64,000 nt of DNA from Cordylochernes scorpioides (lineage: Eukaryota > Arthropoda > Arachnida > Pseudoscorpiones > Chernetidae), in the NCBI GenBank assembly GCA_030710605.1, contig CP092872.1, forward strand, positions 93,832,627 through 93,896,626. The letters are read 5' to 3'. A program made the position numbers and the translations under genes. The notes under the pieces were generated by a model that made no database searches, was not told the origin of the DNA, and was given only the letters and a program-made list of their open reading frames with translations. Numbering within the stretch: the stretch's first letter is position 1; every line of letters begins with the position of its first letter. Below, one piece after another: positions 23,753 through 52,550 of the stretch.

Positions 23753-24218
23753 CGATAAAAATAATCCCTTGAATCAATATTAAAATAAAAACATAAATCC
23801 TCCAGGGAAAAGATTCTTTTAAAAATATTTTTATTTAAAAATATCTCGAGCTTTCGGGCAAGTAAGCCCTTCTACGGGAGAAACTATTTTACATCCTTAA
23901 TACGCCAATAAAATAATATTTAAACTTAAATAAAGTCCTTTAGTTGTTTACATTTGTTTTGAGGCATAATCAACGCGGGCTTCTATTGCGCGTGATTCAC
24001 TTGGAGGTTATGGGGTGGGCTCAGGAAATATAATGTTATAAACTTCCGGGATATCTATTCTTCTGTTAATACTATTGTGCTTTCTGGATATGATGGATTC
24101 TATTATTAGTCTCTGTAGTCTATTGGGGATGTTGGAGTAATGGGTCTTTGGTTCTGATAGGGAGAAGGAATGGCCTGTTTCTCTTATATGTTGGTATACT
24201 AAAGATCTACTGTCTTGG

Positions 24219-24860
24219 TTGTCGATATTTCGTTTGTGTTCTGATACTCTTATATTTAAATTTGAAACAGAAGAAACTCAGAATATATTAAGAAATCTGA
24301 AGACTTGTCAATATCCTTTATCGTTTATTCTAAGACATTTCTATAGCCCCTCTGAAATTCGGAATTCCCCAATCTATAAATCTATTAGCAGTATTCCTTA
24401 TTCACCAGTATCTATTTCTATAGCCCGTCATCTGAAGAAATTTGGGATCAAAACATTTTTCAGCAACTCACCTAATTTAAATTCGTTACTAAGAAACCCC
24501 ATAACAAAGAACAATACCGTTGATTATCCTTCCAATATTAAGAATGCCATATATTCCATAGAATGCAACGAATGCAAAACCAAATATGTTGGCGAAACTG
24601 GCAGACATTTAAATATAAGAGTATCAGAACACAAACGAAATATCGACAACCAAGACAGTAGATCTTTAGTATACCAACATATAAGAGAAACAGGCCATTC
24701 CTTCTCCCTATCAGAACCAAAGACCCATTACTCCAACATCCCCAATAGACTACAGAGACTAATAATAGAATCCATCATATCCAGAAAGCACAATAGTATT
24801 AACAGAAGAATAGATATCCCGGAAGTTTATAACATTATATTTCCTGAGCCCACCCCATAA
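24219..24860 (+). CDS. Penelope-like element linker and GIY-YIG endonuclease
   Basis: 213 codons. Residues 1-14 are read through the inverted arm and are not native. From residue 15 the protein is the PLE linker (QYPLSFI at 31-37, IARHLKKFGIKTFF at 68-81), then the nuclease: AIYSIEC 110-116, paired cysteines C116 and C119, YVGETGR 123-129, R134, E137-H138, and E184 in IIESI as the likely metal-binding acid. The reverse transcriptase is missing, so this copy is a truncated but intact 3' ORF. Two inverted copies of its C-terminal part exist, the other decoded on the minus strand of 23789-24259. Confidence 0.85.
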   Translation: MSIFRLCSDTLIFKFETEETQNILRNLKTCQYPLSFILRHFYSPSEIRNSPIYKSISSIPYSPVSISIARHLKKFGIKTFFSNSPNLNSLLRNPITKNNTVDYPSNIKNAIYSIECNECKTKYVGETGRHLNIRVSEHKRNIDNQDSRSLVYQHIRETGHSFSLSEPKTHYSNIPNRLQRLIIESIISRKHNSINRRIDIPEVYNIIFPEPTP

Positions 24861-28630: not shown

Positions 28631-28669
28631 AAACTAACTTCTACTGTCCTTACTGAGATGAAAAAGATT

Positions 28670-28736
28670 GGGAAGGCTTGGCTCATCAGTGATGAACCCT
28701 CCCAGCGGTTTCGGCAATTTAATCTAACAGACCGCT
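28670..28736 (-). ncRNA. Transposed-order hammerhead, copy B
   Basis: AGCGGUC, GAAACCGCU, GGGAGGG, CUGAUGA, GCCAA, CCUUCCC in this order on the minus strand. Stem III perfect; capping stem kept by G-U; stem II and stem I have mismatches. Confidence 0.5.
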
Positions 28737-30270: not shown

Positions 30271-30337
30271 AGCGGTCTGGAGATTAATTTTGGGGAAACC
30301 GCTGAGAGGGTTCACTACTGATGAGCCAAGCCCTCTC
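30271..30337 (+). ncRNA. Transposed-order hammerhead, copy G
   Basis: AGCGGU (30271-30276), C17 30277, stem I UGGAGAU, GAAACCGCU, GAGAGGG, UUCACUA, CUGAUGA, GCCAA, CCCUCUC. Stem III perfect, stem I second pair G-U, capping stem in the A-U form; the base next to GAA is G, breaking one stem II pair. Confidence 0.6.
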
Positions 30338-30542
30338 ATTCAACAACTTTTATCATTGCAGTAAGATCTGTAGATGTAATATTTGATGATATATCTGAAA
30401 AGAAACACATTGTCAAAAAATAATTATATACAAGGGAATAGCGCGCCATCTGTATAAAAGAAAAGAAAACATTAAAGCATAAATGTTTCTTTTAAACATA
30501 AAACAAACTTCTACTGTCCTTACTGCGATTAAAAAATATATT

Positions 30543-30609
30543 GGGAGGGTTTGGCTCATCAGTGGTGAACCCTCCCAGCGGTTTCACCAATTTAATCCAC
30601 CAGACCGCT
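30543..30609 (-). ncRNA. Transposed-order hammerhead, copy A
   Basis: Minus strand: stem III strand AGCGGU (30609-30604), C17 at 30603, stem I UGGUGGA, linker, stem II UUGGU, GAA, ACCGCU, capping strand GGGAGGG, UUCACCA, CUGAUGA, GCCAA, CCCUCCC (30549-30543). Stem I is seven pairs, stem III six, capping stem seven, stem II five with one G-U. Confidence 0.68.
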
Positions 30610-30879
30610 TCTTAGAGCTTTAATACTGTATTGGATCATTCTGCTTATATATGCTACACTGAAGAGTGGAATCTTAGAAATGGTTTACAAGTAAACTATG
30701 GACATAAGCTTTTAGGACAGTAGAATTACATATAAATATTTGCATCGGGCAATGCTCTTTCACAAACAGCAAAAAACAAGGTCAATTAAGTATAAACTGA
30801 TGATCCAAGCAATCTTCATGTTTCTCTATTTGTACTTTTATGCAAATAAAATAGGATGGTAAAATACTCCGGGCGTAAT

Positions 30880-31215: not shown

Positions 31216-31231
31216 ACACACAACTATTTAT

Positions 31232-31587
31232 AAATACACTCATGGACAAAAGGAAGTTGAACCTTTTAGCATGTATATCGAGATTCAGACAATAGCTCTG
31301 ACAGATATTACAGTGACCTTTATTGAAGACACACGAGATAACCAATATACACTCATAGACAAAACTTAAGGAAGTTGTACCTTTTACCATGTATATCGAG
31401 ATTCATACAATAACTATGAAATATATTACAGTGACCTTTATTGAAGACACACGAGATAACCAATATACACTCATGGACAAAACTTAAGGAAGTTGTACCT
31501 TTTACCATGTATATCGAGATTCAGACAATAACTCTGAAAGATATTACAGTGATCTTTATTGAAGACACACGAGATAACCAAGTGTTT
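31232..31587 (+). mobile_element. MITE M1 array, three units
   Basis: Units start at about 31233, 31348 and 31466; right end missing where a T run joins foldback FB1. Confidence 0.75.
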
Positions 31588-31589
31588 TT

Positions 31590-31765
31590 TTATACAATAT
31601 AATGCGGCCTATGGTTGTAGAACGACATTTGAAATTATCCGCATGTGCTTCTTTTTAAACGAAAAATCGAAATTTATTTTAAGGAGAAATAACCATTATT
31701 CCTAACCTTAGGGATGAAGTATGAAAGGATGATTTGTGAAGAGTAATGATGATTTTTAAATGTCG
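31590..31765 (+). mobile_element. Foldback FB1 arm
   Basis: gttgtagaacgacatttgaa to gtgaagagtaatgatg. Confidence 0.6.
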
Positions 31766-31785
31766 TTTTATAACCAAGTGTGTAT

Positions 31786-31991
31786 ACACTCATGGACAAA
31801 ACTTAAGGAAGTTGTACCTTTCAGCATGTATATCGAGATTCAGACAGTAACTCTGAAAGATATTACAGTGACCTTTATTAAAAACACACGAGATAACAAA
31901 GTATGTGAACAAAATTTTTCCTGCGAAAAAAATAGACGACCGCCGATATCTAAGACCTTCCACTTCCTTAGGTTTTGTCCATGAGTGTGTA
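31786..31991 (+). mobile_element. MITE M1, complete single copy
   Basis: tacactcatggacaaaactt at the left and ggttttgtccatgagtgt at the right; the clearest full-length single copy. Confidence 0.85.
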
Positions 31992-34115: not shown

Positions 34116-34298
34116 ATATATGTGTGCCGAAAAAGGCACCTCTCCCTTTAATTGGCATCAAAACAAAGCACTATGCATCACCCTAGTAAAAAAAAAAAGT
34201 ACTAGTAATTTTTAATACTTATTTTTGGAAATGTATTTATTTGCACATATCAAATATTATCTCTACAGACCTTACTTCAATGATACAAGTTATTGAAT

Positions 34299-34364
34299 GA
34301 GAGGGCTTGGCTCATCAGTAGTGAACCCTCTCAGAGGTTTCGCCAAATTAATCTCTAGACCGCT
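34299..34364 (-). ncRNA. Transposed-order hammerhead, copy E
   Basis: AGCGGU (34364-34359), C17, UAGAGAU, UUUGGC, GAA, ACCUCU (one mismatch in stem III), GAGAGGG, UUCACUA, CUGAUGA, GCCAA, CCCUCUC. Stem II and capping stem perfect; stem I second pair is A-U instead of G-C. Confidence 0.62.
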
Positions 34365-35990: not shown

Positions 35991-36487
35991 ATTATTATTA
36001 TCTCACTTGTATCATTACACAATGTCATGGAGACACATGTATCTTTTAAAATTACAAATATTTTCTCACAATGAGTTTCTTTTTATTAAAAAACGCTAGC
36101 TTTCAAGTGATAATCGCTCTTCAACGGGCTTAATAAAATATCGATCTTCAACGGGCTTAATAAAATATCGATTGTGAGAAAATATTTGTAATTTTAAAAC
36201 TTTTTTCTCAATTTTTATCATGAATAAACATGTATCTTGTTTAGGATTAGTTGTGGTACAAATTGTGCTTGGTGACTCCCATGTATGAGAATAGGTGGTC
36301 TGGGATTGTCTTCTCCTTTTTACAGATGGTGTATGTTGGGAAGATCTCAACTCTGCCTTCAATTCTATTGAATCCTAGATAGAGAATTTATAAAATTAGT
36401 AGACTGAAGGATTGAAAAAGAATTGGGAAGGCTTGAGTTTCTTTCCGGGCTAATTGGCCATTTCAGGCATGGTCTTCTAGCCCGATT

Positions 36488-36554
36488 GGGAAGACTTGGT
36501 TCATGATTAGTAAACCTTTCCAGCGATTTCGCTAATTTAATCCATCAGACCGCT
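36488..36554 (-). ncRNA. Transposed-order hammerhead, diverged copy L
   Basis: Same layout, but CUGAUGA has become AUCAUGA and stem I is broken. Stem III survives with one G-U. Probably inactive. Confidence 0.45.
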
Positions 36555-37449: not shown

Positions 37450-37515
37450 TGAGAGGCTTGGCTCATCAGTAGTGAACCCTCTCAGCGGTTTCGCCAAATT
37501 AATCTCTAGACCGCT
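37450..37515 (-). ncRNA. Transposed-order hammerhead, copy F
   Basis: AGCGGU (37515-37510), C17 37509, UAGAGAU (37508-37502), UUGGC (37497-37493), GAA (37492-37490), ACCGCU (37489-37484), GAGAGGG (37483-37477), UUCACUA (37476-37470), CUGAUGA (37469-37463), GCCAA (37462-37458), CCUCUC. Core bases match the hammerhead consensus, including G10.1-C11.1 and A15.1-U16.1. The cleanest core in the family. Confidence 0.68.
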
Positions 37516-40282: not shown

Positions 40283-40840
40283 ACAAAAGTTTAACTCTAG
40301 CCTACATAAATCATCAATTGTCACGATTATCTATTTTAGCTTGACCCATTGATTTTGACCATTTTTCACTTTGAGATTCTAAAAATACTTCTAAGAAGAA
40401 AGCCAGGAATGAAGTGAAACCCACATTGTCGTTTTACAAGAGAATGATTAAGTTGAGTGAAATATTTTTTAATTTTCATCGAGTTTCTAAATATATTTAA
40501 ATAAACACAACAAATACTTCAGATTGGAAGCTTGGAAGGGACGTGTGGAAGAGAATTTATTATTTAGGATTGTTGTTTGATTTATTTGCTGCGTTGAACA
40601 TCAATCTAGGATTAGTCAGTCCTTCAATGTTGGTGTGAAACACGGAATTCTAAGAAGGAATCCAGGAATGAATTGAGAACCACAATGTCATTTTACAAGT
40701 ATCTAATCAAGCTAAATGAAATAATTGTTAACAGCGTGGTTCCCTAAATATATTTAAATCTTCGAAACTATTATAGACGCGTATGATTCTTTTTTAAAAT
40801 AAACAATTTCTACTGTCCTTACTGCAATGGATAAATTAAA

Positions 40841-40907
40841 GGGAGGGCCTGGCTCATCAGTGGTGAACCCTCCCAGCGTTTTCGCCAGTTTAATCTACCA
40901 TACCGCT
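40841..40907 (-). ncRNA. Transposed-order hammerhead, copy C
   Basis: AGCGGU, A as cleavage base (GUA), UGGUAGA, CUGGC, GAA, AACGCU, GGGAGGG, UUCACCA, CUGAUGA, GCCAG, CCCUCCC. Stem II outer pair is C-G where other copies have U-A. Stem III and stem I each carry one mismatch. Confidence 0.58.
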
Positions 40908-43122: not shown

Positions 43123-43195
43123 CGCCCAACGTGGGGCTCGAACCCACGACCCTGAGATTAAGAGTCTCATGCTCTACCGACTGAGCTAGCCGGGC
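43123..43195 (-). tRNA. tRNA-Lys(CTT)
   Basis: 73 nt, full cloverleaf: GCCCGGC acceptor pairing with GTTGGGC, A box TAGCTCAGTCGG, anticodon loop CTCTTAA with CTT, B box GGTTCGAGCCC. A 14-T terminator follows on the minus strand. Delivers lysine at AAG codons. Confidence 0.96.
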
Positions 43196-43219
43196 TTGTA
43201 TCTAATGATAAAATATATA

Positions 43220-43640
43220 TTGATATAAAAGAAAATTTGCCGGGAGAAAATTATCTATTAAAGCATTTCCCGTCAAAATAAGCGTCAAAACTAGACGCCA
43301 TCTATTGACCGTCGCCTCAACTAGTGGCCTCGGGTCGGTGACAAAGCCACAACACCAGCTTTGGTAAACTGAGAAGTGTCCACTTGGAGACCATGGTTTC
43401 TAGCTAATGGTCCTTTTCAGCCCAAGGCAGACTTTATTCCATGAGATCCTATTTATTTATTGATCCCTTGTGGATCTCATGGAATAAAGTCCGTTCTGGG
43501 CTAAAGAGGGTCATTAGCTTTGTCAGAAGACTCTGTCACCGACTTCAGGTACTAGTTTGCAGCGACGGTCCATAGAATGCGTCTAGTTTTGACGTTTATT
43601 TTGACGGAAGAGGCGCCCTATGCTTTTATAGATAATGATA
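43220..43640. mobile_element. PLE-type terminal repeats, inverted pair
   Basis: Matches 19300-19770: cgtcaaaactagacgccatc and ccgtcgc/gcgacgg arms. Left arm, minus strand, holds a hammerhead with G8 replaced by A (CTGAAAA), paired stem I (CTTGGG/TCCAAG) and GTC. Right arm decayed. Confidence 0.6.
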
Positions 43641-43689
43641 TATATTTTCGGCTACATGAACTCAGTAGAATTTAGTTTAAATATATAAG

Positions 43690-43890
43690 GATTAAAAGAT
43701 TACACGAGGAGCTTTTTTTAGGATTATTGCAAGCTTTCGAACCTTCCGGTTCTTCAACAGGCATGGATAGCATGGATCCATATGTATATCCATGCTATCC
43801 ATGCCTGTTGAAGAACCGGAAGGTTCGAAAGCTTGCAATAATCCAAAAAAGAAGCTCCTCATGTAATCTTTTAATCCTTATATATTTAAA
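43690..43890. mobile_element. PLE palindrome
   Basis: Near-perfect arms of about 95 bp (gaggagctttttt to ccatgctatccatgc). Each arm has TTGAAGAACC-GGAA-GGTTCGAAAGCTTG, a PLE end signature. Confidence 0.75.
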
Positions 43891-43944
43891 TGATATATAT
43901 GTTGTAAATAAACGTTCTACCCTGATATTTAATATTATAAAATA

Positions 43945-44185
43945 AATAAAGCTTCCAGGGTTAAGTTTCTTGTATAACTTTTATTTCAACCTTTCGGATT
44001 TGTCAGTCCTTCAACAGGATTATCATATTAATAACTTAAAATAACTAATAATAATAACTGTATATAAAAATTGTATTTATTATTAAGTTATTAATGTGAT
44101 AATCCTATTGAAGGACTGACAAGTCCGAAAGGTTGAAAATAAAAGTTAAACAAGAAACTTAACCCTGGAAGCTTTATTTATTTTA
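43945..44185. mobile_element. PLE palindrome
   Basis: Arms of about 100 bp (aagcttccagggttaagttt) around an AT-rich centre, each with TTGAAGGACTGACAAGTCCG and GAAAGGTTG. Confidence 0.75.
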
Positions 44186-44199
44186 TAATATATGTTGTA

Positions 44200-44500
44200 A
44201 TTCTTGCCTGGAAATATCAGCCCTTGCCAACTTCACCAGCTTAAACTCCTGTTTGGTGAATTTGACTGATTCCATAACCCTTCTCATAGGATGTTATGAA
44301 ATGAAGCCGTCCCTGTACTGATGAGGGTCATAGCATGAAACCATGGTATACAGGTTGGATTTTTGTATGAATTCACCAAAACCGGTATTATGACTCATTC
44401 TTTATCATCACTAGTAAAGGTTTTTTTTTACTAGGGTGATGATGCACAGTGCATTGTTCTGCTGCACAATTAAAGGGAGAGGTTCCTCTTTTGTTACATA
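44200..44500 (+). mobile_element. PLE-type terminal repeat with hammerhead
   Basis: Flanks gcttaaactcctgtttgg and ccaaaaccggtattatgac match 3895-4080 in opposite orientation. Confidence 0.6.
44312..44354 (+). ncRNA. Hammerhead ribozyme with degenerate stem II
   Basis: CCTGTA (44312-44317), CTGATGA (44318-44324), gggtcatagcat, GAAA (44337-44340), stem III ACC-AT-GGT, A17 at 44348, TACAGG (44349-44354). Core, stem I (6 bp) and stem III (3 bp) are perfect; stem II has no good pairing, so activity is doubtful. Confidence 0.7.
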
Positions 44501-44619
44501 TATTGATATGAAAAAAATAGTACAAATGTAATATTGTACTGGGATAAGGTGCATAAATTAAGAAAAAGGCATCTCCTTATCGTGCAACTGAATGTTGCTG
44601 ATGGCTTGCGCCATCTATC

Positions 44620-44860
44620 GGAATAAATATCAACTATTCTCGTTGATTTTTAATTATTCCAGATTTGGCCAAATACCCATTCTTGATTAATCAAGAAGAG
44701 TCCGTGGTTAGCTTTTCTTGATTAATCAAGAATGGGTATTTGGCCAATTCTGGAATAATTAAAAATCAACGAGAATAGTTGATATTTATTCCGATAGATG
44801 GCGCAAGCCATCAGCAACTTTCAGTTGCACGATAAGGAGATGCCTTTTTCTTAATATATT
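44620..44860. mobile_element. Palindromic element, hammerhead lost
   Basis: Arms of about 110 bp (gccatctatcggaataaat through ttgattaatcaag) joined by gagtccgtggttagc, a remnant of the hammerhead seen whole at 32107. Confidence 0.7.
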
Positions 44861-45194
44861 GATATGTTTTAAATGAATATTGTTTTATTTTTTCCAGAGA
44901 TTCATCTCTTATCTCATTTTTCTTTGCGACTCCGTAAAAAAATGAATTATTTTCTCTCATTTTTTCATCTCCGCTTGAATTATTTTCTCAATTTCTCGCA
45001 TCCTTTCAGAATTCTGTAAGACAGATTTTACAGTTTTCCATCGTATTCTCAAGTTGTTGTATGCCTCGATCTAATTTCTCCACTCTGTGTTCTAAAGAAA
45101 GTAACCTTGTTTCTAATATCTTCCCCCAGTTATCCATTTTCTTCGAGAGCGCACCAATCAATTCTCGTTTATAAATGCATATTAGTGATGGTGT

Positions 45195-45440
45195 CTTGTC
45201 CATACTGTAAGTTCACCACATGTCTATACATGTGAAAAGCAATTCGACTTTTGCACTTACAAAAGTGCCAGGGCTCCTTTTGGTTACTTGCACTCACTGG
45301 TGGGGTTGGACTTTTACAAGAGTCGGGGACCATTGGAGCATTTTTTTTTATCAGAAAAAAAGTGCCCAATGGCGGGATTCGATCCCGGGTGGTAGCGGTC
45401 GAAAACCATCGGTTTAGACCACCCTTCCACTGACCCCTAT
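45195..45440 (-). mobile_element. SINE-A copy
   Basis: Minus strand: tRNA-like head (ggtcagtggaagggtggtc, B box gggatcgaatcccgcc), poly-A-like linker, body. Tail truncated at gtaagttcacc. Confidence 0.7.
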
Positions 45441-45790
45441 TAGTTAAAAATATATAACAATAGGGAATTAAATGGTTTTTGGGAGAGGAGAATCCATTGA
45501 ACATTTCATTTCAACGGCACATCTCTTATCCCATACTTTGGGGATTGCCGCTGTGTATTAAGGTAAAGTTGAGGAAAGATAAGATGGGATTATAGCTCAG
45601 CTATTAGAGATTGGTGACCGAGGATTATCCAGGTCGTTAATCCAAGATCCTCAGTGAAAGGATAAAGTTTTTTAGCGGGCATATCCCCGGATTGTGACAC
45701 TTCTTCTGGACCGAAATACAGTTAATCTCTTACGACCACACACAGACTTCTCTGAAGGATTTATTTTTGGAACTGCTGCATCGAGCATTA
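45441..45790. other. No gene recognised
   Basis: Unique sequence without a convincing frame. Confidence 0.4.
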
Positions 45791-45794
45791 CACT

Positions 45795-46345
45795 TCCACA
45801 AATACACTCATGGATAAAACTTAAGGTAGTGGGAGGTCTTTAATATCGCCGGTCGTTTTCTTGTTTGAAAAAGACAGAGGCAATTTTGTTCACACTTGGT
45901 TACCACACACACATACAAAGCCTTTTTTAAGATGCCAGTCAGATTCTCCTCTCTCATTGCCGGCTTGCAACGATATCCCCACGATGATCAATCACCATCA
46001 TGTGGTGGAGGATAAAACGATGACTCCAAGTTATTTTTCCTACTTACTGCTTTGTAAAAGTTATATAGGGACAGAGCAACCATTCAACATGATATGGCGC
46101 TGTTACTTTGTACTGAGGTAAGTTGGCTGTCGTTTACTTTTAAGAAGAACATCTCTCTTTATTCACTAATATAATGGCACTCAAAGATATAATGAGATCT
46201 CCATTTTTTCAATCTCCATTTTTTTCTTTGCAATACCAGTGCCACACTTGGTTATCTCGTGTGTCTTCAATAAAGGGATCACTGTAATATCTTTCAGAGT
46301 TATTGTCCTGATATACATGATGAAAGATACAACTTCCTTAAGTTT
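45795..46345 (-). mobile_element. MITE M1 split by other DNA
   Basis: Right part 45803-45903 (tacactcatggataaaactt to cacacttggttacc) and left part 46246-46345 (cacttggttatctcg to cttaagttttgg), separated by about 340 bp that begins with a (CA)n LINE 3' end (45905-45960, minus). The MITE end at 46345 runs into the 42-bp array. Confidence 0.6.
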
Positions 46346-46346
46346 T

Positions 46347-46745
46347 GGAACAACTGTTCCAAATTAGAGTTACATGAAGATACAACTGTGAACATCTGTT
46401 CCAAATTACAGATACAATACAACGCACAACTAGGAACATCTGTTCCAAATTACAACTGGCTGAAGACGCAATCAGGAACAACTGTTCCAAATTACAACTG
46501 GCTGAAGACGCAATCAGGAACAACCGTTCCAAATTAAAACTGGCTGAAGACGCAATCAGGAACAACTGTTCCAAATTACAACTGGCTGAAGACGCAATCA
46601 GGAACAACTGTTCCAAATTACAACTGGCTGAAGACGCAATCAGGAACAACTGTTCCAAATTACAACTGGCTGAAGACGCAATCAGGAACATCTGTTCCAA
46701 ATTACTACTGTCTGAAGACGCAATCAGGAACAACCGTTCCAAACT
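46347..46745. repeat. 42-bp minisatellite, inverted array C (about 10 units)
   Basis: ggaacaactgttcc recurs at 46347, 46390, 46433, then every 42 bp to 46727, with spacer aaattacaactggctgaag. Reverse orientation relative to arrays at 48138 and 50925. Open on the minus strand as a 14-residue repeat, judged incidental. Confidence 0.9.
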
Positions 46746-46867
46746 ATTTCTATATAATCACGCAACTCTCAGGAGCTATGTTGAGAAATCAGCATTCCAT
46801 ATATCCAAAAATTAGATTATAAATAAATTTCGTATCTCAATACTTTGCATTTACCCTTTACATACAT

Positions 46868-46940
46868 GCCCGGCTAGCTCAGTCGGTAGAGCATGAGACT
46901 CTTAATCTCAGGGTCGTGGGTTCGAGCCCCACGTTGGGCG
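46868..46940 (+). tRNA. tRNA-Lys(CTT)
   Basis: Same 73-nt sequence as the gene at 43123-43195, CTT anticodon, followed by a 10-T terminator from 46941. Only plus-strand member of the group; about 120 bp from array C. Confidence 0.96.
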
Positions 46941-46964
46941 TTTTTTTTTTTTAATTTTTTTATA

Positions 46965-47285
46965 CAACACGTATCAAAGTGCCATCTTTTGAGATCCCAA
47001 TACCCCATAATAATCATAGTAAATAGTATACGACTGCTTTTACTGTAAGTGCGCCACATGTCTACACATGTGAAAAGCAGTTCGACTTTTGCGCTTACAA
47101 ATGTATCAGAGTTCCGTTTGGTTATTTGTAATCACTGATAGGGTGGGGACCCTACGCAAAAATAAGGAAGTCATTTAAGCTATTTTGTTCTTTAAAAAAA
47201 GTGTTCAAAGCGGGAATCGAACCTAGGTTTTGGATGTAAAAAACCGACAGTTTATACTACTTTCCATACCTATTCCAATATGCAA
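46965..47285 (-). mobile_element. SINE-A, diverged copy
   Basis: Body (gtctacacatgtgaaaagcag) and head (cgggaatcgaacctagg) recognisable but decayed. Confidence 0.6.
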
Positions 47286-47396
47286 ATATTTAGAATAAGT
47301 TTATACTTGTAAAGGTCTTCTGCGATGATTTGGGAGAAAAGGTATCGCACATGCTAATAATATAAGAAATGAAACCACATTAAGCGAAAATATATT

Positions 47397-47720
47397 GCCA
47401 CGTGGAAAATTAGGAAAGACAAACTTCGGAAATATCTTTATATTTATATTGCTAACCAAAATTGATTATTTTTGAGCCCCGGAAAAAAATTTCCGAAACC
47501 CGAGATCGAACCAGGGACCTTTAGATCTTCAGTCTAACGCTCTCCCAACTGAGCTATGCTTTAATAACGAAGACAAACTTCAGAATGACTCAGCGATTTA
47601 TTTAAGGCAAGAACAAACTATGAATGATAAACAAAAAATAAGCAATGTGGGAAGATTACTGAATAGCAAAATATAAACTTAAAAAAATTATACCCTGTTA
47701 ATAAAATAATAAATATTTTG
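47397..47720 (+). mobile_element. Repeat relic around tRNA-Phe-like sequence
   Basis: ttgccacgtggaaaattagg, ggcaagaacaaactatgaat and accctgttaataaaataat recur at 53370-53480 and 53920-53980 and inverted at 29090-29330. Confidence 0.45.
47491..47563 (-). pseudogene. tRNA-Phe(GAA) pseudogene
   Basis: Minus strand TAGCTCAGTTGGGAGAGCG, anticodon loop with GAA (GACTGAAGATC), GGTCCCTGGTTCGATCTCG and 3' TTTCGGA. The 5' acceptor strand is replaced by unrelated bases and cannot pair with the 3' strand. Confidence 0.75.
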
Positions 47721-47939
47721 CGACAATATTATGAGGGCTTCTCTCTCTCGCTCATCAGTGGTTTCACTAATATATTACACTTGTATTAAAGGCCAGTATG
47801 CAATTTTTATTTGTTGAATTTGTGTGTGTGATAAAGAAAAAAATTCGCCCTCTAACATACGACGTAACATATGGCGCGTTATTTTCTGATGTTTAATACA
47901 GGCTGATGGATAAATATTTTTAAAGTTTAAAAAAAAAAA

Positions 47940-48012
47940 CGCCCAACGTGGGGCTCGAACCCACGACCCTGAGATTAAGAGTCTCATGCTCTACCGACTG
48001 AGCTAGCCGGGC
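47940..48012 (-). tRNA. tRNA-Lys(CTT)
   Basis: Identical to the other Lys copies over 73 nt; T run follows on the minus strand. About 125 bp before array D. Confidence 0.96.
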
Positions 48013-48137
48013 ATGTATATAAAGGGTAAATGCAAATTATTGAGATACGCAAAATATTATAATTTTATTTTTGGATAGATGGAATATTGATTTGCCAACA
48101 CAGCTCTTGAGAGTTGCGTGATTATAAAGAAATAGTT

Positions 48138-48995
48138 TGGAACGGTTGTTCCTGATTGCGTCTTCAACCAGTTGTAATTTAGAACAGATGTTCCTAGTTG
48201 TGCGTCGTCATGTAACTGTTTTTTGGAGCAGATGTTCCCAGTAGCGTTGTCATGTAACTGTAATTTGGAACAGATATTCCCAGTTGTGCCGTCATCTAAC
48301 TGTAATTTGGAACATTTGTGCCCAGTTGTGCCGTCATGTAGCTGTAATTTGGAACAGATGTTCCTAGTTGTGTCGTCATGTAGCTGTAATTTGGAACAGA
48401 TGTTCCCAGTTGTGCCGTCATCTAACTGTAATTTGGAACAGATGTTCCCAGTTGTGCCGTCATCTAACTGTAATTTGGAACATTTGTGCCCAGTTGTGCC
48501 GTCATGTAGCTGTAATTTGGAACAGATGTTCCTAGTTGTGTCGTCATGTAGCTGTAATTTGGAACAGATGTTCCCAGTTGTGCCGTCATCTAACTGTAAT
48601 TTGGAACAGTTGTGCCCAGTTGTGCCGTCATGTAGCTGTAATTTGGAACAGATGTTCCCAGTTGTGCCGTCATCTAACTGTAATTTGGAACAGATGTTCC
48701 CAGTTGTGCCGTCATCTAACTGTAATTTGGAACAGATGTTCCCAGTTGTGCCGTCATGTAGCTGTAATTTGGAACAGATGTTCCCAGTTGTGTCGTCGTG
48801 TAACTGTAATTTGGAACAGATGTTCCCAGTTGTGCCGTCATCTAACTGTAATTTGGAACAGTTGTGCCCAGTTGTGTCGTCATCTAACTGTAATTTGGAA
48901 CAGATGTTCCCAGTTGTGCCGTCATGTAGCTGTAATTTGGAACAGATGTTCCCAGTTGTGCCGACATCTAACTGTAATTTGGAACAGATGTTGGA
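48138..48995. repeat. 42-bp minisatellite array D (about 21 units)
   Basis: Anchors fall every 42 bp from 48225 to 48981 (19 units) plus two irregular ones upstream. Core ggaacagatgttcc, spacer cagttgtgccgtcatctaac. An open frame of 263 codons (14-residue period, CNLEQMFPVVPSSN) crosses it. Confidence 0.92.
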
Positions 48996-49258
48996 ACAAA
49001 TGAACAGACCTTAATGCAAGGAAGAGTCAAGCCCTCTCATTGAATAACTTATATCATAGCAGTAAGGTGTATAGAGATATAATATTTGATGATATTTTTG
49101 AAAAGAAACGCATTGCCAGCAAATTTATTTGTTACAAATATAAGAATATAAAAGGGGGGGGGGGGGGGATATTGGTTTTGATTAAAAAGGGACACAAATT
49201 CATTAAAGGAAACAAGATAATAAAAAAGGAGATATTTTATACTGGGTTATAAAAAAAA

Positions 49259-49342
49259 TGTCAGAAGTGGGATTCGAACCCACGCCTACAAGAGTAGACT
49301 GCGACCTGAACGCAGCGCCTTAGACCGCTCGGCCATCCTGAC
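49259..49342 (-). tRNA. tRNA-Leu(CAG)
   Basis: 84 nt with long variable arm. GTCAGGA acceptor, A box TGGCCGAGCGG, anticodon loop TTCAGGT with CAG, B box GGTTCGAATCC. T run (8) follows on the minus strand. Confidence 0.96.
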
Positions 49343-49939
49343 ATGGTACAAACTGTTTGTGCATACTTATTAAAGAGGGAATTATCTCTTGCCAAGTTGT
49401 CAGTTTGTTTGGTCTCTTGTATTCACTATTGGAGATTCTTTTGAAAGAAAGGGAGTTATGAGAGAAATTTATTCTTTTTAAAAAGTTTTCAATGTGAGAT
49501 TCGAATCCGTGTTCTATTGTCGAAATTTGACACTATAAATATATAGCAGTCATTCTTCTAGTAGTCAGAGCCCGCCTGAAAAAAATGACTAGATAGGGTG
49601 TCTTATGGAGGTGGACGCTTATCAGAGACTCTGTTTCAGTTGAAAGAATTTCAATGTCTTGTCCTGACATGACAGAGTCTCTTGTGAATAAACTGTATCA
49701 CCTTATCATCGTTTCATTGCGCGGCGTATTTGAAATGTATTACATGGCAATGACGTTTAATTAAGAATGGTTTGTCCTGTGTTGATACATCACATTGGCA
49801 CATGTAGCATGGGGGCGTCCATGATGTTAGCTTCATGTCAATTGATGGAGACGTGGTTTAATTGGTTTACATACTTCAAGACCCACTTATACACTTGTCC
49901 GCATGTAAATTCTACACAAGCAACGTTTTTATTCCTCAT
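49343..49939. other. Spacer, no gene recognised
   Basis: First 130 bp are duplicated after the second tRNA-Leu (52401-52530). The rest is unique. Confidence 0.5.
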
Positions 49940-49954
49940 ATTATTAGAGTATTC

Positions 49955-50329
49955 AACAACAACAACTTTATTAGGGCATCTAGCCCTGTACGGATTCCCC
50001 GTGGAGTTACAGACAATATTAAACTTAAGAGAACAGGTGAAGATAGAGTATTTACAATTAAGGTATGGCAAACAGGGTGACTTTTTATTGTGCCCCTGTT
50101 CTTCTCTCTTCCACGAGTGCAATTTTATTTCCAACCGCTTTTTGATAGTTGAACAGTTCAATTGCCCAACTTTTCTTATCTGAAACAATTTTTATTAGCT
50201 TTATTGAGTTCAAATGCGGTCTAGGAAGACTTTTCAGGATCTTTTTTCTCTCTCCTTCCATATCCCCGCATTCAGCAATAATATGGTATATTTTATCAGT
50301 TATCTGACTTCCACATAACCCACAGTACA
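49955..50329 (-). mobile_element. LINE 3' fragment with 15-bp TSD
   Basis: Target attattagagtattc at 49940-49954 and 50330-50344. Minus strand encodes YCGLCGSQITDKIYHIIAEC (zinc knuckle) to a stop, then hairpin, AATAAAG and (TTG)n. A different LINE subfamily from 11581. Confidence 0.88.
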
Positions 50330-50728
50330 ATTATTAGAGTATTCTATTTTTATTTCAATTTAAAGCGCTATGTCCCCCTGGGGACACTTGCACTGACAGA
50401 CATACATGTTTCTACAATTGTCTATGTATATATTTACAATAATTTAAGTCCGTATAGTCATAAGATATTAACAAGAAGAAAGAGAGAAAAAAAAGAAAAA
50501 TTGTCATCAAATATTTACATTAAAATTATTTCATTTATCATTATTATCAAAAGAGAATAGAATATATATATGTCGTAAACCCGGGTAAGCCAACAAGTGA
50601 GTTGGAAGCAGTCGGGGTTGAGTGGCAAGGTGTGGGAAGTCTGCACGGGACAGTAAGGACAAAGTTTGGGATAATAACAATGTCGTTAACATCTTTAGAT
50701 AAAAATAATTTCTGAATAAAAAAAAAAA

Positions 50729-50801
50729 CGCCCAACGTGGGGCTCGAACCCACGACCCTGAGATTAAGAGTCTCATGCTCTACCGACTGAGCTAGCCGGG
50801 C
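50729..50801 (-). tRNA. tRNA-Lys(CTT)
   Basis: Identical to the other three over 73 nt; T run follows on the minus strand. About 125 bp before array E. Confidence 0.96.
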
Positions 50802-50924
50802 ATGTATATAAAGGGAAAATGCAAAGTATTGAGATACGAAACTTATTTGTAATCTTATTCTTGGATATATGGAATCCTGATTTCTCAACACAGCTCCTGG
50901 GAGTTAGGTCGTTATGTAACAATA

Positions 50925-51895
50925 GTTTGGAACTGTTGTTCCTGATTGTGTCTTCAGCCAGTTGTAATTTAGAACAGATGTTCCAAGTTGGCGTTGTCCT
51001 GTAACTGTAATTTGGAACAGATGTTCCCAGTAGCGTTGTTATGTAACTGTAATTTGGAACATATGTTCCCAGTAGCGTTGTTATGTAACTGTAATTTGGA
51101 ACATATGTTCCCAGTAGCGTTGTTATGTAGCTGTAATTTGGAACATATGTTCCCAGTAGCGTTGTTATGTAGCTGTAATTTGGAACATATGTTCCCAGTA
51201 GCGTTGTTATGTAACTGTAATTTGGAACATATGTTCCCAGTAGCGTTGTTATGTAGCTGTAATTTGGAACATATGTTCCCAGTAGCGTTGTTATCTAGCT
51301 GTAATTTGGAACATATGTTCCCAGTAGCGTTGTTATGTAGCTGTAATTTGGAACATATGTTCCCAGTAGCGTTGTTATGTAACTGTAATTTGGAACAGAT
51401 GTTCCCAGTAGCGTTGTTATGTAACTGTAATTTGGAACATATGTTCCCAGTAGCGTTGTTATGTAACTGTAATTTGGAACAGATGTTCCCAGTAGCGTTG
51501 TTATGTAACTGTAATTTGGAACATATGTTCCCAGTAGCGTTGTTATGTAACTGTAATTTGGAACATATGTTCCCAGTAGCGTTGTTATGTAGCTGTAATT
51601 TGGAACATATGTTCCCAGTAGCGTTGTTATGTAGCTGTAATTTGGAACATATGTTCCCAGTAGCGTTGTTATGTAACTGTAATTTGGAACAGATGTTCCC
51701 AGTAGCGTTGTTATGTAACTGTAATTTGGAACATATGTTCCCAGTAGCGTTGTTATGTAGCTGTAATTTGGAACATATGTTCCCAGTAGCGTTGTTATGT
51801 AGCTGTAATTTGGAACATATGTTCCCAGTAGCGTTGTCATGTAACTGTAATTTGGAATAGATGTTCCCAGTTGTGTCGTCAGTTGGAATTGGAAC
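50925..51895. repeat. 42-bp minisatellite array E (about 23 units)
   Basis: Anchors every 42 bp from 51014 to 51854 (21 units) with edge units. Core mostly ggaacatatgttcc, a perfect 14-bp palindrome; spacer cagtagcgttgttatgtaac. Both strands are open across it (290 and 323 codons) because the unit is a multiple of three without stops. Confidence 0.93.
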
Positions 51896-51949
51896 AAATG
51901 AACAGACCTTACTGCAATGAAGAGCCAAGAAAAGAAACACACATTGCTA

Positions 51950-52140
51950 GTAAGATTATATAAAAGGGCGTACCTGGATCTGTAAAAGAAAAAAAAATTT
52001 TTTTTTTCTTAAAATATTTCGAGAGATTGCTCCCTCTTTATTGCTCCCTCAATCTCTCGAAATATTTTAAGAAAAAAATTGTTTATTTTATTTTATTTTT
52101 TCTTTTACAGATCCAGGTACGCCCTTTTATATAATCTTAA
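51950..52140. mobile_element. Palindromic element
   Basis: gggcgtacctggatctgtaa inverted at 52100-52130; centre cgagagattgctccctc inverted once. No hammerhead core. Confidence 0.7.
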
Positions 52141-52316
52141 TTAATGGATCGCCTTTTGACCCAAACATTGCTAGTAAATTTATTTGTTACAAATATAAGA
52201 AAATAAAAAGTTGGGGGGGGGGGGGGGTATTGGTTTATATTAAAAAGGGACAACAATTCATTAAAGGAAACAAGATATAAAAAAGGGAGATATATTATAC
52301 TGGGTTATAAAAAAAA

Positions 52317-52400
52317 TGTCAGAAGTGGGATTCGAACCCACGCCTACAAGAGTAGACTGCGACCTGAACGCAGCGCCTTAGACCGCTCGGCCATCCTGAC
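52317..52400 (-). tRNA. tRNA-Leu(CAG)
   Basis: Identical 84-nt sequence to 49259-49342, same upstream and downstream context, T run after its 3' end. Confidence 0.96.
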
Positions 52401-52550
52401 ATGGTACAAACTGTTTGTGCATACTTATTAAAGAGGGAATTATCTCTTAACAAGTTGTCAGAGTCTGTTTGGTTTCTTGTATTCACTGGTGGATATTCTT
52501 TTGAAAAAAAGGGAGTTATGAAAGAAAACTTTTTAAATGAAAAAAAAAAA

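Follow-up and report, generated by a model that had tools for sequence, protein, structure and literature searches.

The window analysed here, a stretch of 64,000 nucleotides, contains on its minus strand (37515-37451) a hammerhead-like motif, copy F. Its core bases are complete and, read directly, follow one another in the order cleavage block, GAA block and CUGAUGA block. All of its parts lie on the minus strand, and they are assigned as follows.

37451 to 37515, minus strand: copy F, of the S2 subfamily, a complete predicted type-SGC hammerhead (letters read; aligned with 43 further copies)
37510 to 37515, minus strand: stem III 3' strand AGCGGU, partner of 37484-37489
37509, minus strand: predicted cleavage base C17; the cut would fall directly 3' of it, between 37509 and 37508 (site placed by analogy with type-SGC ribozymes)
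37503 to 37508, minus strand: stem I 3' strand UAGAGA, which includes a covarying pair (letters read)
37498 to 37502, minus strand: linker TTAAT, joining stem I to stem II at their outer ends (letters read)
37493 to 37497, minus strand: stem II 3' strand UUGGC, which includes a covarying pair (letters read)
37490 to 37492, minus strand: core GAA (letters read)
37484 to 37489, minus strand: stem III 5' strand ACCGCU (letters read)
37478 to 37483, minus strand: capping helix 5' strand GAGAGG, within the segment GAGAGGG (37483-37477), which includes a covarying pair
37470 to 37475, minus strand: stem I 5' strand UCACUA, within the segment TTCACTA (37476-37470)
37463 to 37469, minus strand: core CUGAUGA (letters read)
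37458 to 37462, minus strand: stem II 5' strand GCCAA, followed by one G (letters read)
37451 to 37456, minus strand: capping helix 3' strand CCUCUC, one C shorter than the CCCTCTC of its relatives

Both of the core pairs, which we take to be G10.1-C11.1 and A15.1-U16.1 in hammerhead-style numbering, are intact in copy F. Its stem I has an A-A mismatch at the fourth pair. After filtering, six copies with all three blocks were retained in the window, copy F among them, in addition to a further decayed copy and others that are partial. The remaining copies are distributed as follows.

28666 to 28736, minus strand: SGC copy, S1-like (filtered and aligned)
30271 to 30341, plus strand: SGC copy, S2-like, whose stem I has a G-U intermediate (filtered and aligned)
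30539 to 30609, minus strand: SGC copy, S1 (filtered and aligned)
30422 to 30784, minus strand: about one S1-like unit enclosing the copy at 30539-30609 (unit comparison)
34295 to 34364, minus strand: SGC copy, S2 (filtered and aligned)
36485 to 36554, minus strand: decayed SGC copy, outside the alignment (sequence reading)
40837 to 40907, minus strand: SGC copy, S4, with the cleavage triplet GUA (filtered and aligned)

In the S4 subfamily, of which the copy at 40837-40907 (minus strand) is an example, GUA replaces GUC at the predicted cleavage triplet. An A at position 17 is a permitted NUH base.

The motif falls outside hammerhead types I, II and III, which share the cyclic order CUGANGA, GAA, NUH and nested stems, since its order is reversed. 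This arrangement is known from Eckert et al. 2023 (NAR, PMC10085705). That paper defines the blocks S, G and C and describes type-SGC hammerheads of S-G-C order, in which a helix connects stem I with stem II and pseudoknots form. It reports 583 predicted type-SGC sequences from metatranscriptomes and cutting in vitro for five sequences, and states that no genome of a known organism contained any of its RNAs, one type-GCS candidate excepted. The copies described here share with these ribozymes the block order, the core bases, stems I-III, the tying helix and the crossing pairs; their capping helix directly adjoins stem III, as it does in a few of the published examples. The differences lie in the linker, of about 5 nt rather than the typical 3 nt, and in the setting, a retroelement with tens of thousands of copies in an animal nuclear genome, whereas the published RNAs are metatranscriptomic. 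Judged by the features that can be tested at the sequence level (block order, core and core pairs), the motif is a type-SGC hammerhead. The preliminary description of this locus had reported the reversed block order of copy F, together with intact core identities and both core pairs, and the letters of the minus strand at 37515-37451 confirm this. It had also stated that no such ribozyme was described, which is wrong: both the order and the tying helix were already described by Eckert et al. 2023 (PMC10085705). That paper was the sole match for type-SGC hammerheads in a search of the open-licence literature, a body that leaves most subscription journals outside.

Existing models did not retrieve the motif. 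No Rfam 15 family reached its gathering score for it, and Hammerhead_II scored 12.3 bits against 37. Genome-wide, RF00008 and RF00163 gave 0 matches among only 67 and 74 scored candidates, and the controls were likewise silent, so that ordinary hammerheads may be present as well. Among viral contigs, a stem I-CUGAUGA pattern had no match, and a loose S-G-C pattern matched five contigs, none with convincing stems by eye.

Genome-wide abundance was assessed over 2.62 Gb (24 contigs) with exact pattern counts and reversed patterns as controls. The block CTGATGAGCCAA has 65,604 exact matches, versus 35 for its reversed control. A 35-position pattern reaching from the GAA block to the CUGAUGA block was retrieved at 51,778 places and a half pattern from the cleavage block to the GAA block at 45,843, in both cases versus 0 for the reversed control; for a 50-base stretch of S1, 13,083 exact matches were counted. 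As a sequence feature, the motif is thus confirmed to exceed chance, with tens of thousands of matches versus near-empty reversed controls. In the first 4.4 Mb of contig C1, 100 listed GAA-CUGAUGA places were compared with 85 listed cleavage-GAA places, and the two half patterns were in register at 61 of the 100. Extrapolated from these 4.4 Mb, and if that share held, there would be about 30,000 intact ribozymes genome-wide at that strictness.

For the alignment, 93 rows with at most three mismatches on the CUGAUGA side were passed through a cleavage-block filter, which left 65, of which 56 were distinct. Twelve distinct rows whose cleavage block was spurious or missing were dropped and two rows were re-anchored, giving 44 aligned copies over which stem III, stem I, stem II and the capping helix were scored as crossing brackets. 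In register, 89.6% of the cells were paired, versus 32-54% for versions slid by 1 to 3 columns. Cells changed on both sides numbered 25; the shuffles gave 9.4 +/- 2.4, and none of the 500 reached 25. Shuffled cells pair almost as often (88.0% versus 89.6%), and two of the five covariation measures, pairs changed on both sides and further pair types, were no higher than in shuffles of the 44 copies.

The three subfamilies differ by compensatory changes. Stem I, stem II and the capping helix each have one clear covarying pair: pair 2 in stem I (G-C to A-U in 7 copies, 2 with G-U), the outer pair in stem II (U-A to C-G in 6 copies) and pair 2 in the capping helix (G-C to A-U in 8 copies, 5 with G-U). 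As these double changes track the subfamilies, they represent few independent events, and the near invariance of stem III precludes a covariation test of that stem. Because the double changes in stems I and II join different hairpins, they favour loop-loop pairings over two plain hairpins. The earlier proposals that two hairpins contribute their loops to stems I and II, and that the capping helix ties the far ends of these stems, are supported. Substitutions in stems I and II that break pairing had been named as evidence against the fold; two of the three clear compensatory changes preserve cross-hairpin pairs. At the fifth pair of stem I most copies have A-C, and 31 of the 44 are unpaired there. 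Pseudoknot-free folding of five copies recovered the outer stems of both hairpins in each (z -1.6 to -3.3), along with competing pairs within the hairpin loops.

Between the compared S1, S2 and S4 members, 57-61 of 67 columns are identical in the ribozyme, 48-55 of 105-115 upstream of it and 55-78 of 129-137 downstream, where some of the sequence already lies beyond the element. We infer that selection acts on the source elements. Among the individual copies, one at L068:522 (minus strand) has a stem I-II linker grown to a run of 16 A, and those at L002:1016 and L007:1024 (plus strand) belong to a related old type with GAA and CUGAUGA blocks and no recognisable cleavage block.

The element carries one ribozyme per 368-372-bp unit and occurs in tandem and in 5'-to-5' inverted arrays. 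At locus L022, three 372-bp units lie head to tail, one ribozyme each, flanked by a 14-bp target duplication; the repeat step is 371 bp for S4 copies and 368 bp for S2 copies. Target duplications of 11-17 bp were recognised, without a shuffled control, in 9 of 51 clusters, corresponding to 7 distinct insertions, and one further duplication with one mismatch was read by eye at L002. The 5' ends of units are variable. Measured from the predicted cut, the 3' ends of 19 of 23 S1 rows fall into two zones, +143-161 (n=11) or +166-190 (n=8), which lie about 30 nt apart and were set after the ends had been seen, some of the 23 rows sharing a locus. The remaining four are at +83, +117, +120 and +312. 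In divergent copies similarity fades earlier, mostly near +112-128. Copies run through the predicted cut, as would be expected if the template were a circle or an uncut multimer.

The 3'-end region is flanked by an 11-bp stem, formed in S1 by TTCTACTGTCC with GGACAGTAGAA (unit positions 83-93 with 249-259, e.g. in L022) and in S2 by CTCTACAGACC with GGTCTGTAGAG. Of the 93 rows, 36 have both arms (the search tolerated one mismatch), and in 25 of the 36 the arms pair over their full length; some of these fully paired rows are changed on both arms. When one unit was folded as a circle, the 11-bp stem and hairpin 2 formed and hairpin 1 did not, and the circular fold was no more stable than shuffles (z -0.9).

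These units recall the metazoan non-LTR retrozymes of Cervera and de la Pena 2020 (NAR, PMC7229834), which are repeats of 150-450 bp arranged in tandem, each with its own hammerhead, have target duplications of >4 bp and give rise to RNA circles, and whose abundance is illustrated by 126,247 type I motifs in axolotl. Repeat length with one hammerhead per repeat, target duplications and high copy number are shared. The ribozyme differs, being type I in the published animal retrozymes and an SGC permutation here, and circular RNA, demonstrated for the former, is predicted for the present element.

Among the places listed, every inverted pair of neighbours is 5'-to-5'. In the first 100 listed GAA-CUGAUGA places of contig C1, neighbours within 600 bp were found 5'-to-5' 15 times, 3'-to-3' 0 times and in tandem 5 times, three of these tandem pairs deriving from a single 122-bp array. 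In the first 100 listed exact S1 places of the same contig, which overlap with the former list (segmental duplicates were kept in both), neighbours within 1 kb were found 5'-to-5' 9 times, 3'-to-3' 0 times and in tandem 27 times, with steps of 371-373 bp in 25 of the 27. The S1 places include inverted arrays of 11 minus then 4 plus copies and of 4 minus then 9 plus copies.

A candidate for the insertion machinery, outside the ribozyme, is also encoded in the window.

24141 to 24860, plus strand: Penelope-like element frame with a GIY-YIG endonuclease match (22.0 bits, against a Pfam cut-off of 22.6)

Penelope-like GIY-YIG elements are very abundant in this genome: 66,376 candidates were found, and among the best 150 of them, which were scored, seven had open frames of 781 codons. 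Neighbours within 6 kb among these best 150, with segmental duplicates kept in, were 5'-to-5' 24 times, 3'-to-3' 0 times and tandem once. In one sampled Penelope copy, no CUGANGA was found in the spacer and no sequence similarity to the retrozyme unit was detected. Frangieh et al. 2024 (Mob DNA, PMC11167929) reported a Penelope-like protein that acts on both strands of the target, cutting and extending each, and that starts reverse transcription at two adjacent internal RNA sites 30-40 nt apart. The two sites account for the optional 30-40-bp tail of genomic Penelope copies, and no difference in start site was seen between the strands. The unit resembles these elements in its two internal 3'-end zones, comparable to the optional tail, in the pattern of extension on both strands, in its tandem copies and in the position of a hammerhead upstream of the start sites. 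It differs in the kind of hammerhead, which is SGC here, and in coding capacity, since Penelope-like elements encode a reverse transcriptase and a GIY-YIG endonuclease, for which a 372-bp unit is too short. A further difference is that no strand preference in start site was seen for Penelope, whereas one zone per arm is found in seven of eight distinct inverted insertions of the unit. On these sequence comparisons, it is most likely a Penelope-type machine that inserts the retrozyme, and the arrays on both arms probably stem from repeated rounds on circular RNA.

We consider it probable that the type-SGC hammerhead is present once per unit of an abundant, non-autonomous, retrozyme-like animal retroelement, which would be cut, circularised and inserted by Penelope-type machinery along the following lines. 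Transcripts of tandem copies would cut themselves after C17 (A17 in S4) into unit-length pieces, which a host ligase would close into circles. A Penelope-type protein would then nick both strands of the target and start reverse transcription internally, at either of two sites (about +150 or +182, counted from the cut). On each strand it could make several turns of the circle, and the two cDNAs would join at their 5' sides, so that a single target duplication would enclose inverted arrays. For the Anolis Penelope element, mutating the hammerhead left insertion in vitro unaffected, and RNA that had not been processed served as the main substrate (PMC11167929), so the template could be a tandem transcript instead of a circle. 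With somewhat less assurance, we lean towards the fuller account in which an animal retroelement has adopted a non-circularly permuted hammerhead as its processing ribozyme and spread it to tens of thousands of copies. In this account rolling-circle reverse transcription would copy the circular RNA from both target strands, at two neighbouring start sites, and one insertion would leave a pair of diverging multimers, each of at most about a dozen units.

Inverted pairs could instead result from twin priming by a LINE-type machine that moves the element. Variable 5' ends, tandem copies and 11-17-bp target duplications, as found here, also occur with LINEs, and inverted 5' parts are known from LINE insertions. 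The distribution of 3' ends is harder to reconcile with this origin. Ten inverted S1 insertions were picked because both of their outer ends fall in a zone, and they represent eight distinct insertions, as L001, L004, L036 and L006 are one duplicated insertion and L002 and L007 another. In all eight, both arms carry the 3' side of the unit; seven have one arm in each 3' zone and one has both in the first zone. This two-site, two-strand pattern is the one published for Penelope (PMC11167929), and the Penelope-like copies in this genome (best 150 of 66,376) share the pair geometry, 24 to 0. We therefore regard insertion by a LINE-type machine as unlikely and retain a Penelope-type machine.

Several features of the genomic copies may hint at cutting in cells. 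Exact suffixes of S1 number 13,481 when counted from the base that follows the cut. Including C17 lowers the count to 13,196, a loss of 285, and adding one more base lowers it to 13,083, a loss of 113. This step fits extra ends at the predicted cut, and a faster-mutating C17 would give the same. At L054:700-1200, each of four 122-bp repeats (S2) begins precisely at the base that follows the predicted cut, where L007 is also broken; as traces of cutting, these breakpoints are suggestive only. Among the 93 sampled rows, two loci have 5' ends at exactly 0, a pile-up at the cut that is not significant by estimate.

The structure might also have been retained for another role, such as binding of the reverse transcriptase, and no longer be an efficient self-cutter. 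The A-C mismatch in stem I of most copies points that way, as do the rather slow rates of published type-SGC ribozymes (0.007-0.19 per min; PMC10085705) and the Anolis Penelope hammerhead, which cut only with the protein present and was dispensable for insertion in vitro (PMC11167929). The catalytic bases, by contrast, rank among the most conserved columns of the 44 copies, with the reservation that loci L035-L074 were picked for exact CTGATGAGCCAA, so this block appears less mutated than it truly is. The drop in S1 suffix counts at C17 likewise argues for cutting, or equally for a fast-mutating C17. Loss of efficient self-cutting seems to us rather improbable, and the self-cutting retrozyme is preferred.

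A further reading of the element is a MITE, a DNA element with inverted ends whose hairpins serve a transposase. Inverted arms of 85 bp and more and an inverted 11-bp pair flanking the ribozyme are in keeping with it, but variable 5' ends, multimers with a 372-bp step and duplications of varying length do not suit fixed terminal repeats, and we hold it very improbable. That two ordinary hairpins resemble a hammerhead by chance, some copies having loops that can pair within their own hairpin, is hardly credible given that all core bases are present and that the covarying pairs of stems I and II span different hairpins.

Within the literature searched, an SGC ribozyme that is abundant in an animal genome and resides in a retrozyme with Penelope-type insertion marks appears to be new. 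The SGC permutation was formerly known from metatranscriptomes without a known host, and a nuclear genome with three subfamilies lets its origin and its function in the cell be studied. If the proposed reading is true, this would be the first nuclear host for the SGC fold, with a distinctive two-strand, rolling-circle mode of integration. The system also lets one ask whether retrozymes and Penelope elements share machinery, and inverted arrays within single target duplications, as a putative genomic record of two-strand priming, would make the Penelope insertion mechanism testable from genome data. For annotation, the Rfam 15 hammerhead models miss a very abundant hammerhead-like RNA.

Some further features of the window and the assembly were recorded. 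A tRNA-like gene cluster at window positions 43123-52401 comprises four tRNA-Lys(ctt), two tRNA-Leu(cag) and one tRNA-Phe, spaced about 0.4 to 3.7 kb apart, and 120-nt direct repeats occur at 118-bp steps at 31228-31902. The sole COX1 match in the assembly, at L077:406-741 (G000:C3:89667005-89667340), is a decayed nuclear fragment that points weakly to an invertebrate, having serine at AGA and methionine at ATA under the invertebrate mitochondrial code.
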